The notes: generated from the letters alone by a model not told the origin. A stretch of 64,000 nucleotides of DNA from Luteolibacter sp. LG18 (GCF_036322585.1 NZ_AP024600.1:496001-560000); one strand, 5' to 3'. Numbered from the stretch's first letter, positions 19,563 through 24,668 are shown. Translations and numbers: made by a program.

Positions 19563-20579
19563 TCAGGCGGTCGGAACTTCCGAGATCGTCTTGAGAACGC
19601 GGCCGGCGATCGCGTACGGGTCGCCCTGGGAGTTCGGACGGCGGTCTTCGAGGTAACCCTTGTAGCCGTTGTTCACGAAGCTGTGCGGGATACGGATCGA
19701 GGCACCGCGGTCGGCCACGCCGTAGGAGAACTTGTCGATGGACTGGGTCTCGTGCAGGCCGGTGAGGCGGAGGTGGTTGTCCGGACCGTAGACGGCGATG
19801 TGCTCGTCGCGGTTCTTGTCGAAGGCAGCCATGAGCTTCTCGAAGTACTCCTTGCCGCCGACTTCACGCATGTGCTCGGTGGAGAAGTTGCAGTGCATGC
19901 CGGAACCGTTCCAGTCGCCCTTGATCGGCTTGCAATGGAACTCGACGTCGAGGCCGTAGGATTCGCAAAGGCGGAGGAGGATGTAGCGGGCCACCCAGAT
20001 TTCGTCGGCGGCGCGCTTGGAGCCCTTGCCGAAGATCTGGAATTCCCACTGGCCCTTCGCCACTTCGGCGTTGATGCCTTCGTGGTTGATGCCAGCGTCC
20101 AAGCAGAGGTCGAGGTGCTCCTCGACGATCTGGCGGGCGACGTCACCGACGTTCTTGAAGCCGACGCCGGTGTAGTACTCACCCTGCGGAGCCGGGTAGC
20201 CTTCCTTCGGGAAACCGAGGGGCTTGCCGTTCTCATAGAGGAAATATTCCTGCTCGAAGCCGAACCAGGTGCCCACGTCGTCGAGGATGGTGGCGCGGGT
20301 GTTGGACGGGTGCGGGGTGACGCCGTCCGGCATCATGACTTCGCACATCACGAGGGCACCATTGATGCGGGTGCTGTCCGGGTAGATGGCGACCGGCTTG
20401 AGCACGCAGTCCGAGCTGCGGCCTTCGGCCTGCTGGGTGGAGGAACCGTCGAAGCCCCAGTTCGGAAGCTGCTCGAGGGTCGGGAAGGATTCGAACTCCT
20501 TGATCTGGGTCTTGCTACGAAGGTTCGGAACGGGGGTGTAGCCGTCGAGCCAGATATACTCCAATTTGAACTTGGGCAT
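19563..20579 (-). CDS. glnA: Glutamine synthetase, type II (eukaryotic-like)
   Basis: A 338-residue enzyme that makes glutamine from glutamate, ammonia and ATP. The beta-grasp N-domain (YIWLDGY, then NWGFDGSSTQQAEGRSSD) and catalytic domain (FGFEQEYFL, INAEVAKGQWEFQI, PIKGDWNGSGMHCNFSTEHMR, NHLRLTGLHET, DRGASIRIP) follow the GSII pattern. GSI enzymes are about 470 residues and have an adenylylation loop; that loop is absent here. Length equals that of plant/animal-type GSII. The gene is monocistronic, with a terminator downstream and a 312-base divergent region upstream. Confidence 0.92.
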   Translation of the reverse strand: MPKFKLEYIWLDGYTPVPNLRSKTQIKEFESFPTLEQLPNWGFDGSSTQQAEGRSSDCVLKPVAIYPDSTRINGALVMCEVMMPDGVTPHPSNTRATILDDVGTWFGFEQEYFLYENGKPLGFPKEGYPAPQGEYYTGVGFKNVGDVARQIVEEHLDLCLDAGINHEGINAEVAKGQWEFQIFGKGSKRAADEIWVARYILLRLCESYGLDVEFHCKPIKGDWNGSGMHCNFSTEHMREVGGKEYFEKLMAAFDKNRDEHIAVYGPDNHLRLTGLHETQSIDKFSYGVADRGASIRIPHSFVNNGYKGYLEDRRPNSQGDPYAIAGRVLKTISEVPTA

Positions 20580-20891
20580 CGATGTGGTGGTTGTTGTTTG
20601 CGGATTCGCGGATGATTCGAGGGCGCGTTAGACCTCACGGACCATCGCGCCCACGGGCGGCTAAAAAGCAATTCCCGGGCCAATCCGCAACTGAATCCTG
20701 ATTTTTTCGGGCATGTGGAAGACGTGACCTGCGGATTTCCACCGCTAGTCCGGCCACCATAAGGACAGGAGAAGCGGGCCGGAGGAAAGGAGGAGGAGTT
20801 CCGTAACCCCTTTATTTCGCATCGATGGTTCATCGATACGGACTGGAATAGAGTTGTTCGAAGCGACGTTCCCAAAGCAAAATCCGCCTGC
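20580..20891. promoter_or_regulatory. Divergent intergenic region between glnA and the HSP90-like gene
   Basis: 312 bases without a gene. It must hold the promoters of both divergent genes, though no clear -35/-10 pair stands out. A perfect palindrome ATCGATG-GTT-CATCGAT lies at 20821-20837, about 55 bases before the HSP90-like ATG, and could be an operator or 5' UTR hairpin. A purine-rich stretch (GGAGGAAAGGAGGAGGAG) lies around 20780-20800. Confidence 0.4.
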
Positions 20892-22700
20892 ATGGCGGCT
20901 TCTCCTCAACAGCGTTTCCAAGTGGATCTCGCCGGGATTCTCAGCGTCCTTTCCGAGCACCTTTACAGCACGCCGACAGTGGCGTTTCGCGAACTGCTCC
21001 AGAACAGCACGGACGCAATCTCAGCCCGAACCTCGCTGCAACCGGCCCACCGGGGAGCGATCACCATCGAATGGATCGACGACAAGGAATCGCCCACGCT
21101 GGTGGTCGAGGACAACGGAATCGGCCTGACGGAGGACGAGGTGCACCTTTTCCTCGCCACCATCGGGGGCTCCTCGAAGCGGACCGGAAAACAGGGCGAC
21201 CGGGAGAAGTTCATCGGGCAGTTTGGGATCGGCCTGCTCTCGTGCTTCGTGCTCAGCGATGAAATCGTGCTGATCACGCGCTCCGCAGCCGACGAAGATG
21301 CTCCCGCGGTTGAATGGCGGGGACGCGGCGACGGCACCTACCACGTGCGGGCGCTTGAAACCAAACACCCCGCCGGCACCCGTTTGTATCTAAAGATCAA
21401 GGCATCGCAGACCAAACTTTGCTCACCGCGCATGCTCAAGGACTGGTTCTCGCACTACGGCGAATACCTTCCGATCTCCATCGAACTGCACGCGGGCGGT
21501 CAGTCCGGTCGCATCACGAATACCGAAGCGCCCTGGGACAACGGCGGCCTGCCCGCCATGAATCAGAAGGCGATGTGGGAAGCCGGAACCGGCTATTTTG
21601 GATCGGAGTTCATCGACATGGTCCCGATCTCCTCCGCAAAAGGCGGCTTGGCCGGGGTGGCGTTCATTTCCGTGCAGTCCCGGAGCCTCCATTCGAAGCC
21701 GCGGCACCGCCTCTACCTGAAGGGCATGCTGCTTTCCGACCACACGGAGGGCATTGTGCCTGACTGGGCGGTGTTCGTGAACGTCCTGGCCAACACCACC
21801 AAGCTCCAACCGACGGCCTCGCGCGAGTCCCTTATGGAGGGCCCGGCCTTGGACGACACCCGGGAGGAAATCGGGGACTGCATCCTGGCCTACCTCCGCC
21901 GCCTCGCCGTCAGTGACGAGGCCAAGCTCGCCGTGATCATCCAGACCCATCATCTGGCGCTCAAGTCGCTCGCGCTTGAGGACAGTGATGTCCTGCACTT
22001 CTTCGCGCCCTGGTTTCAGTTCGAAACCTCCCAGGGCCGCATGAGCTTCGAGGAAATCCGGCGGCAGGACAGCCCCCGGTATTGCATCTCGGTGGACCGC
22101 TATCGACAGCTTGCACCCGTGGCAGCCGCCGAAAACCGCTGCCTCATCAACGCCGGCTACGTCTTCGATGCCGAGCTCATGAGCGCCTTGGCCGCGGAGC
22201 TCCCGGATCTCGGCCTGGAGGAAATCAGCGCCATGAGCTTCACCGACCAGCTCGGCGAGCTCGCCACCGGCAAGGCCCACCTCTTCGAGGACCTCGTCGA
22301 GGCTGCCGCAGCGGCACTGCGCCCGCACCAGTGCCGTGTGGAGGCACGTCATTTCCAGCCGGCCACCCTGCCCGTGCTCTATGTTCAAAATGACGCGGCC
22401 CATTCGAAACGCGCTCTGGAGCAGTCCCAGGAGGATGCCGACGGCTTTTTCAGTTCGCTGCTCGGTGACATCAGCGCCCGCTTCGCGGAGGATGCTTACC
22501 ATGTCTGCTATCTGAACGCCGCAAATCCACTCATCCAGCGCCTGACGAACGTCAAAGACCGCCAGCGCCTGCTCGTCATCACCGAAGTCCTTTATCTCCA
22601 GGCCCTCCTCCTCGGCCAGTATCCCATCACCTCCAAAGAAACCCGCCTCTTGTCCGACGGGCTGCTCCAGCTCATCGAAATGGGGGTCTCGACCCACTGA
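20892..22700 (+). CDS. Divergent HSP90-family ATPase/chaperone
   Basis: A 602-residue protein with a GHKL-type N-terminal ATPase domain. Visible motifs are FRELLQNSTDAI (Glu34, Asn38), VVEDNGIGLT (Asp74) and IGQFGIGLLS (109-117), all diagnostic of HSP90. The middle domain has a recognisable RLYLKGMLLSD segment and the NTTKLQPTASRESL arginine-containing region. The C-terminal part (from about 380) is poorly conserved and no charged linker is seen. It resembles the ~600-residue bacterial 'HSP90 family protein' group rather than canonical HtpG. It starts a three-gene cluster with a helical-repeat protein four bases downstream and a PP2C phosphatase. Confidence 0.88.
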   Translation: MAASPQQRFQVDLAGILSVLSEHLYSTPTVAFRELLQNSTDAISARTSLQPAHRGAITIEWIDDKESPTLVVEDNGIGLTEDEVHLFLATIGGSSKRTGKQGDREKFIGQFGIGLLSCFVLSDEIVLITRSAADEDAPAVEWRGRGDGTYHVRALETKHPAGTRLYLKIKASQTKLCSPRMLKDWFSHYGEYLPISIELHAGGQSGRITNTEAPWDNGGLPAMNQKAMWEAGTGYFGSEFIDMVPISSAKGGLAGVAFISVQSRSLHSKPRHRLYLKGMLLSDHTEGIVPDWAVFVNVLANTTKLQPTASRESLMEGPALDDTREEIGDCILAYLRRLAVSDEAKLAVIIQTHHLALKSLALEDSDVLHFFAPWFQFETSQGRMSFEEIRRQDSPRYCISVDRYRQLAPVAAAENRCLINAGYVFDAELMSALAAELPDLGLEEISAMSFTDQLGELATGKAHLFEDLVEAAAAALRPHQCRVEARHFQPATLPVLYVQNDAAHSKRALEQSQEDADGFFSSLLGDISARFAEDAYHVCYLNAANPLIQRLTNVKDRQRLLVITEVLYLQALLLGQYPITSKETRLLSDGLLQLIEMGVSTH

Positions 22701-22704
22701 CACC

Positions 22705-23787
22705 ATGACGGAAATCCGGCCTCTCCTCCACCAAGTCAAACAAATGCCCCATGGCTCCGCCAAGGTCGAGGCGGCCCGCGAGCTGTGGAATCTCGCCAGC
22801 CGGGACGAGGATCCCTCGCTGCGCTTTGAGGTGCTCGGGGAAATCCTCCAAGCGGCTCTCTTCGGCGGTGCCACGGATTTCTTCCTCGCGTTGATGCCCC
22901 AGATGGCCCGCCTCAAACGGGACCATCCCGAGGCCGTCAATCCGTTCACCTATTTGTGGCGCTTCAAGTGGCTCACCCATAATCTTGAAAACTATCCCGA
23001 GGTGCCACTCGATCGCATCCGCCAGGCGGAGGCCGAGTATGAACGGGAATTGCGGAATGCCGGTGGCAGCGAACGCACCGCCATTTATATCCGATGGAAG
23101 AATGCGATCGCCATGGGGCGGCTTGATGACACGGACCCGCTCCGCGAGCAGTTCCTGAGCATGCAAAGGGATGAGCACGCGGACTGCCTCGCCTGCGAAG
23201 CCGACGAGCTCGTCCGGGATGCCGCTCGCCGTGGCGATCACGCGGAAGCGTGCAAGCGGGCCAAGGCCATTTTGGCGGGCTGGATGCGTTGCGCGGAGGT
23301 TCCCCACCTGACCCTCCCTCATCTGGCGATCTCCGCCGAATTGAATGGCGAGCCGGACAACGCCCTCTCCCACCACCGGAAAGGCTACCCGCTCATCCGC
23401 TCGAACATCCAGTTTGTTGGCGAGGTGGGCATTCACATGGCCTACCTGGCTGCCAGCGGCCAAATCGAACGCGGGACACGGCTCCTCAAGACGCATATCG
23501 GCTGGCTGGAGCAAAACCGGAATCCCAAATCGCACTACCACTTTCTGCTCGGCGCGACCGCCGTGTGCCAGGCACTCGCCGGAAAGCAGCAAGGTGCCGT
23601 GAAACTGCCCTTGCCCTCCAAATGGCTCGTGGCCTGGGGCGACAAGCCGCTTTCACCTGCGGACCTCGCTGAACGGTTCGAGCAGGAAGGCAGGACCCTC
23701 GCCGCGGCCTTCGACCGCCGGAACGGAAATTCGTGGCACAGCGACCATTTCGACCAGACACTTGCCAGGATACGGGAACGGAATTAG
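22705..23787 (+). CDS. Helical-repeat (TPR-like) protein of the HSP90 module
   Basis: A 360-residue, mostly alpha-helical protein without signal peptide or membrane segments. The repeated helix pairs, such as AARELWNLASRDEDPSLRFEVL, CEADELVRDAARRGDHAEACKRAKAIL, HLAISAELNGEPDNALSHHRKG and AYLAASGQIERGTRLLKTHI, look like degenerate tetratricopeptide units. Given its position four bases after the HSP90-like stop, it is probably a partner or co-chaperone of that ATPase, since TPR proteins classically bind HSP90. I do not recognise a named family. Confidence 0.65.
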   Translation: MTEIRPLLHQVKQMPHGSAKVEAARELWNLASRDEDPSLRFEVLGEILQAALFGGATDFFLALMPQMARLKRDHPEAVNPFTYLWRFKWLTHNLENYPEVPLDRIRQAEAEYERELRNAGGSERTAIYIRWKNAIAMGRLDDTDPLREQFLSMQRDEHADCLACEADELVRDAARRGDHAEACKRAKAILAGWMRCAEVPHLTLPHLAISAELNGEPDNALSHHRKGYPLIRSNIQFVGEVGIHMAYLAASGQIERGTRLLKTHIGWLEQNRNPKSHYHFLLGATAVCQALAGKQQGAVKLPLPSKWLVAWGDKPLSPADLAERFEQEGRTLAAAFDRRNGNSWHSDHFDQTLARIRERN

Positions 23788-23801
23788 CGCCTTCTTCCTC
23801 C

Positions 23802-24629
23802 ATGGACTCCGCTCCAGACACCTTACCACCCGCCATCCTCCGTTGGTCCGGCATGACCCATCCCGGCCGGTTCCGGGCGAACAACGAGGATGCCTTCCTC
23901 GCCCTGACCTTCGACGCCCGCGAGTTCCACTACCTCGGCAAAAACGGCCACGGCTCGATGGCGCAATCCGACTACGTGTTCGCCGTGAGCGACGGCATGG
24001 GCGGCGCGAAATCCGGCGAGTTCGCGAGCAAGATCGCCGTGGAGAAGATCACCCGCCTGCTCCCGAAAAGCTTCGGCATGGCCGCCCAACACCTCGACGC
24101 GGGCTTCGAGGACGTGCTCGGCGAGCTATTCGACAGCATCCACGCCGCGATCGTCGATCTCGGCCGCCACTACGAGGAATGCCACGGCATGGGAGCGACC
24201 CTCAGCCTCGGCTGGTTCATGCCCGGCTGGCTGTGTTTCTGCCACATCGGCGACAGCCGGATCTACTACCTGCCGAAGGACGGCGAAATGATCCAGATCA
24301 CCCACGACCACTCCCACGTCGGCTGGCTGCGCCGCGCTGGCAAGATCAACGAGCGCGAGGCCCGCGGCCATCCGCACCGCCATGCCCTGTCCCAGGCTCT
24401 CGGCGGCGGCCAGAAAACCATCGATCCCCATATCGGCCGCGTAGCCTACCAGCCCGGCGACCGTTTCCTGATCTGCTCGGACGGGCTGGTGGACGGCCTC
24501 TGGGACCGCCGGATGGCGGAAATCGCCCGCGGCGAGCTGGATGCCTCCCGTCTGGTGCTGGACGCGGTGATGGAATCCGGTCGGGACAACACCACGGCTC
24601 TCCTGATCGAAGTCGCCGAGACCGAATGA
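23802..24629 (+). CDS. PP2C-family protein serine/threonine phosphatase
   Basis: A 275-residue metal-dependent phosphatase. The PP2C motifs are in order: RANNEDAF (Asn28, Asp30), FAVSDGMGGAKSGEFAS (Asp64), GMGATLSLGWF, CHIGDSRIYY, QALGGG, FLICSDGLVDGLW and GRDNTTALLIEV. It is soluble and has no extra sensory domain. ATG 23802, 14 bases after the TPR-like gene, fits the domain start. Its place in the HSP90/TPR cluster suggests control by reversible phosphorylation, but no cognate kinase lies in the cluster. Confidence 0.92.
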   Translation: MDSAPDTLPPAILRWSGMTHPGRFRANNEDAFLALTFDAREFHYLGKNGHGSMAQSDYVFAVSDGMGGAKSGEFASKIAVEKITRLLPKSFGMAAQHLDAGFEDVLGELFDSIHAAIVDLGRHYEECHGMGATLSLGWFMPGWLCFCHIGDSRIYYLPKDGEMIQITHDHSHVGWLRRAGKINEREARGHPHRHALSQALGGGQKTIDPHIGRVAYQPGDRFLICSDGLVDGLWDRRMAEIARGELDASRLVLDAVMESGRDNTTALLIEVAETE

Positions 24630-24639
24630 CGGTCCGCCC

Positions 24640-24668
24640 ATAGGTCCTATAAGTCCTATAGGACCTAT
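24640..24668. repeat. Perfect 12-bp inverted repeat 'ataggtcctata' between the PP2C gene and lysA
   Basis: Arms 24640-24651 and 24657-24668 are perfectly complementary, with a 5-base loop AGTCC. The word GTCCTATA also repeats directly inside. It follows the PP2C stop by ten bases and could end the HSP90 operon, but there is no T-run after it. Similar TATAGGTCC palindromes are, from memory, widespread in verrucomicrobial intergenic DNA. Confidence 0.7.

Follow-up and report, generated by a model that had tools for sequence, protein, structure and literature searches.

A PRK14083-type HSP90 and a linked TPR-like protein as a probable two-gene chaperone unit in Luteolibacter sp. LG18

The genome of Luteolibacter sp. 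LG18 (5.80 Mb, single contig) carries, in the stretch of 64,000 nucleotides (nt) analysed here (C1:496001-560000, hereafter the window), adjoining genes for an HSP90-family ATPase, a TPR-like protein and a PP2C-type phosphatase. The three genes share one strand and are 4 and 14 nt apart, and the original prediction, made from the sequence alone, had both this spacing and a three-gene module. The coordinates were confirmed, and the link between the first two genes, open reading frames (ORFs) 1 and 2, was upheld, whereas the phosphatase had to be taken out of the module. We estimate a probability of about 0.68 that ORF1 and ORF2 form a portable, horizontally acquired chaperone unit, in which a PRK14083-subfamily HSP90 is accompanied by a TPR-like partner of its own, most likely acting as co-chaperone or client adaptor.

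The HSP90 gene and its linkage to ORF2

ORF1 (20892-22700, plus strand, 602 amino acids) was assigned to its family by NCBIfam and PDB matches and by its invariant catalytic residues. The NCBIfam model NF010683 (PRK14083, 'HSP90 family protein') gave 646.8 bits over residues 5-600, with an equivalog cut-off of 455 bits. The model of canonical HtpG (PRK05218) spanned residues 6-577 (E 5.7e-49) at 167.1 bits, under its equivalog cut-off of 371 bits. Pfam recognized chiefly the GHKL ATPase domain, and the best PDB match was E. coli HtpG (E=4e-28). The ATPase residues E34, N38, D74, G76, G78, G109, F111, G112 and G114 and the middle-domain R311 were identical in 87/87 homologues, in agreement with the GHKL motifs having been called intact. 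In an AlphaFold2 (AF2) model of a planctomycete relative, approximately 630-670 columns aligned with full-length HSP90, TRAP1 and HtpG structures. By its sequence, ORF1 is thus a full-length PRK14083 member, with the three-domain (N-M-C) fold predicted to be complete and the ATPase residues of that family and of HtpG intact. Its C-terminal half had been described as unlike HtpG; this divergence is one of sequence and not of architecture, because the HtpG and PRK14083 models and the modelled fold of the relative all align over the whole length or nearly so.

A PRK14083 gene above the cut-off was found in 1/73 genus genomes and 1/289 phylum genomes, each time the window's own, which makes it an isolated occurrence in these samples. 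HtpG-like matches are common in the genus (63/73 genomes), and the genome of the window has a second, separate gene of canonical HtpG type at approximately C1:4559760. In contrast, among 388 phylum genomes we detected the ORF2 partner in the window's genome only, apart from one marginal repeat-type match.

To find relatives elsewhere, a single-sequence query of genome contigs was run, which returned none, and an alignment query was then used on 84,980 species genomes. The best 80 of 454 relatives were taken, and adding the window's own locus and six from plasmid or phage records brought the total to 87 HSP90 loci; as the 80 are those nearest to the window's HSP90, they are an uneven sample. 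In 82/87 loci an ORF2 homologue was located downstream of the HSP90 gene on the same strand, and wherever the two were linked ORF2 was always 3' of the PRK14083 gene. Most gaps fell in the range of -10 to +66 nt; four were wider, at 107-439 nt. Paired loci occurred in Planctomycetota, Acidobacteriota, Myxococcota, Thermodesulfobacteriota, Bacillota, Actinomycetota, Bacteroidota and Pseudomonadota, and with the window, taken as Verrucomicrobiota, they reach nine phyla. Five loci lacked an adjacent ORF2. In L086 the start of ORF2 is visible before the contig ends, in L090 the contig stops after HSP90, and in the genomes of L108, L112 and L114 an ORF2 homologue lies at another site, where the short flanks retrieved contain no HSP90. 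In the planctomycetes L108 and L112, a saccharopine-dehydrogenase-like ORF directly 3' of HSP90 is apparently common to both (L108 translation). No other recurring neighbour was found among the HSP90 loci, where no Pfam family occurred in more than 3/111 neighbours, and none of the 87 loci had a natural HSP90-TPR fusion. Searching with tblastn against plasmid-labelled records showed ORF2 relatives directly adjoining PRK14083 genes in Paenibacillus, Streptomyces and Listeria. IMG/VR viral contigs gave only short, partial HSP90-like matches, and E. coli gave no DNA match. An actinobacterial-type HSP90-TPR pair was seen on an unverified, phage-labelled 6.6-kb gut scaffold (L038, MT837560.1), which is probably mislabelled bacterial DNA.

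For co-occurrence, genomes were sampled evenly within each of three phyla, around G463 for Actinomycetota, G457 for Planctomycetota and G464 for Bacillota, giving 576 genomes in all. The numbers of genomes with both genes, HSP90 only, ORF2 only and neither were 4/0/0/145 in Actinomycetota, 6/1/0/191 in Planctomycetota and 4/0/0/225 in Bacillota, with one-sided Fisher p values of 5e-8 for Actinomycetota and 9e-11 for Planctomycetota. Pooled, ORF2 was present in 14/15 genomes with a PRK14083 HSP90 and in 0/561 without it; these counts include G463, G457, G458 and G464, which were known beforehand as HSP90 carriers, and without them they become 10/11 and 0/561. The single HSP90-only genome (G791) holds an HSP90 fragment that begins at base 9 of its contig, and one planctomycete (G720) has kept both genes unlinked. 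Protein distances of HSP90 and ORF2 were also correlated (r=0.96, and 0.69 where the HSP90 distance exceeded 0.4), to which shared ancestry contributes.

The ORF2 protein and its predicted interaction with HSP90

ORF2 (22705-23787, plus strand, 360 amino acids) is described here as a TPR-like alpha-solenoid partner protein on the basis of linkage, co-occurrence, an AF2 model and conservation. Alone it had no Pfam, NCBIfam or PDB match, and at profile level no NCBIfam family describes it, so that the family is uncurated. We built an alignment of 54 rows, with rows from plasmid and phage records left out for structure modelling. The AF2 model from this alignment was an all-helical solenoid, with a mean predicted local distance difference test score (pLDDT) of 95.6 and a predicted template-modelling score (pTM) of 0.93. 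With this model Foldseek placed designed PPR proteins first and TPR proteins lower down (probability 1.0, template-modelling scores 0.3-0.6). The ORF2 profile also matched designed PPR/TPR chains, and Pfam TPR models matched weakly, any one of them in at most 6/54 homologues. As modelled, ORF2 is an all-alpha, TPR/PPR-like superhelix of tandem helical hairpins, in agreement with the TPR-like helices proposed from the sequence.

Near-invariant positions in the family are W85, K88, W89, D160, C161, C164, C196, P200, A220, D337, R339 and N340. They form the motifs W85xxKW89, D160-C161-x-A-C164-E (DCxACE) followed by C196, P200, and D337-x-R339-N340. Each of the three cysteines is kept in 52/54 rows. 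In the predicted secondary structure C161 and C164 begin one helix and C196 lies in a loop past the next hairpin, and in such a model the three could plausibly face the same side and make up a metal or redox site.

Actinobacterial ORF2 proteins (L033, L035, L036 and the actinobacterial loci among L117-L157) are extended by several hundred residues to approximately 1000 amino acids, and the extra part also scores weakly against the same repeat profile. Tandem ORF2 duplicates behind one HSP90 were seen in Listeria (L034:7803-9771), G660 and G915.

A complex of the two proteins was modelled as had been suggested in the original prediction. The HSP90 and ORF2 genes are in one frame at 13 loci, and by reading the stop codon as glycine we obtained 12 pseudo-fusion rows, to which unpaired HSP90 and ORF2 rows were added; the pair modelled was that of L083. 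The AF2 model had a pTM of 0.83 and a mean pLDDT of 91.8, with a disordered linker (pLDDT near 52-56). It weakly favours an HSP90-ORF2 interface, because its pTM is above the approximately 0.6 that we roughly estimate for bodies of ~600 and ~360 residues whose mutual placement is undefined.

Taken together, these results are consistent with a unit in which ORF1 would be the ATP-driven HSP90 component. ORF2 would dock on it and either select or present clients or tune the ATPase cycle, and its three near-invariant cysteines may serve as a metal- or redox-responsive site, possibly controlling ORF2. The mode of docking is unlikely to be that of an EEVD clamp, as none of the 87 HSP90 C-termini has an EEVD tail, and we excluded it as a conserved mode. 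The repeats of ORF2 have diverged too far to be matched reliably to known carboxylate clamps. A bolder proposal is that the PRK14083 HSP90 is served, in at least nine phyla, by a TPR-like co-chaperone dedicated to it and switched by metal or redox state through three cysteines, the two being a machine that evolved separately from and in parallel to the eukaryotic HSP90-TPR partnerships. We regard this as tentative, with the odds somewhat against it.

Several observations weigh against a two-gene chaperone unit. The HSP90 and TPR trees put the long branches of the window's proteins in different places, although weakly. Because HSP90-linked members were the source of the ORF2 profile, divergent unlinked members could escape detection, and a plasmid-labelled record of Actinomyces oris (L037:5941-8976) does have an ORF2 homologue and no HSP90 in that record. 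A fourth conserved metal ligand beside the three cysteines was looked for and not found. The interface model is a single-chain pseudo-fusion from a relative and not the window's pair, with HSP90 as a monomer, and is judged by its pTM value.

ORF2 might also be an obligate client: a TPR-like effector or sensor, folded or activated by the HSP90, would then do the actual work. Strict co-occurrence suits a client equally well, and both the fusion of the actinobacterial proteins to several hundred further residues and the presence of two ORF2 copies per HSP90 in some genomes (Listeria, G660, G720 and G915) would fit such a role. However, the model of ORF2 by itself shows a very well-formed solenoid, and Pfam and NCBIfam searches found no catalytic domain in its common core. 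We therefore consider the client role unlikely, if the best placed of the alternatives, and prefer ORF2 as a co-chaperone or adaptor.

Insertion of the pair beside a native PP2C gene

The third gene (ORF3, 23802-24629, plus strand, 275 amino acids from the ATG) was identified by its orthologues and synteny as native to the genus. Its longest ORF begins upstream of the ATG, at GTG 23733. The phosphatase is intact, as originally described, with a match to PF13672 and one of 169 bits to the Stp1-like model NF033484, under the 230-bit equivalog cut-off. Orthologues with 77-89% identity were found in four genus genomes (G289, G322, G325 and G326) that have no PRK14083 HSP90 above the cut-off. The order glnA-PP2C-lysA was kept in all four, with EamA next in the three whose contigs extend so far, and glnA and PP2C were divergent and less than 200 nt apart.

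The DNA alignment of the window with G289 (L071) breaks off at 20708 and begins again at 23813. A block of approximately 3.1 kb with the HSP90 and TPR-like genes (20709-23812, plus strand), delimited by the alignment ends and also marked by its base composition, stands where G289 has approximately 56 bp; the boundaries are approximate, and the right edge is up to 11 nt inside PP2C. The G+C content at third codon positions was 0.80 for HSP90 and 0.76 for ORF2, versus 0.87 for PP2C and 0.89 for lysA. The simplest reading of these sequences is that the block was inserted between glnA and PP2C in the window's lineage, because the four relatives keep glnA-PP2C-lysA without the pair. Trees gave no outcome as to the donor, since the window's branches are long.

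A mobile pair could belong to a defence or conflict system moving among genomes. This would agree with the patchy spread of the pair (approximately 2-4% of genomes in three phyla), with its horizontal acquisition in the window's lineage, and with copies on large plasmid-labelled replicons and one phage-labelled contig. On the other hand, PADLOC gave a generic GHKL-domain match for ORF1 and none for ORF2, the PADLOC matches shown among the 111 neighbours were generic kinases and helicases, no recurrent effector partner was seen among them, and the Listeria pair lies amid housekeeping genes beside fri. The defence-related role that had been raised as possible thus found no positive support, and we consider it quite improbable.

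PP2C was absent from all 86 other HSP90 loci. Judged by gene order, PP2C is an ancestral neighbour and bystander outside the HSP90-ORF2 unit, because it is native in relatives without the pair and absent from those 86 loci. A three-gene HSP90-TPR-PP2C module acting like eukaryotic HSP90-PP5, as originally envisaged, could draw on how closely the genes are spaced here and on their probable co-transcription, but it is largely refuted and very improbable given the ancestral place of PP2C beside glnA and lysA, its absence elsewhere and the missing EEVD tails. With the unit inserted between glnA and this old gene, PP2C may now be transcribed from upstream of HSP90 through an accident of location. 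A search for a sigma-70-like promoter found none, and at the locus no CIRCE operator was found and no Rfam RNA matched.

PP2C adjoins glnA in six other genus genomes (L071-L074, L076 and L077), in divergent or same-strand orientation, hinting at a nitrogen-related role of PP2C; in the window the two genes are at 19563-20579 and 23802-24629. Between PP2C and lysA, a perfect 12-nt inverted repeat, ATAGGTCCTATAAGTCCTATAGGACCTAT, was found at 24640-24668 as a single copy in the window and is perhaps a terminator or a REP-like element.

Relation to known systems

The sources searched record no partner protein for the PRK14083 family, unlike the ORF1-ORF2 pair described here. In open-access papers, to which the search was limited, with subscription journals and preprints outside it, no connection between this subfamily and a TPR partner was found. 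Bacterial HTPG proteins have been split into groups A, B and C, with two copies in some genomes (Chen et al. 2006, PMC1525184), and PRK14083 perhaps corresponds to one of the divergent groups B and C. According to a 2021 paper (PMC7926864), no co-chaperone with a part in protein remodelling has been identified for bacterial Hsp90. The eukaryotic TPR co-chaperones Hop/Sti1, FKBP51/52 and PP5 resemble ORF2 in being helical-repeat proteins functionally tied to HSP90. However, the HSP90s studied here have no MEEVD tail, and ORF2 is a longer solenoid unrelated to these proteins, which has a cysteine motif and lacks a peptidyl-prolyl isomerase or phosphatase domain. ORF3 resembles the Stp1/IreP-type PP2C phosphatases in its domain matches, and its partners in the genus are glnA and lysA, not HSP90.

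What looked like an operon of three genes is corrected here to a pair with a bystander. ORF2 is a concrete, purifiable and testable candidate partner that, in phyla far apart, is almost never inherited without one particular HSP90 subfamily. Its pairing with HSP90 raises the question whether partnerships between HSP90 and TPR proteins had more than one origin.

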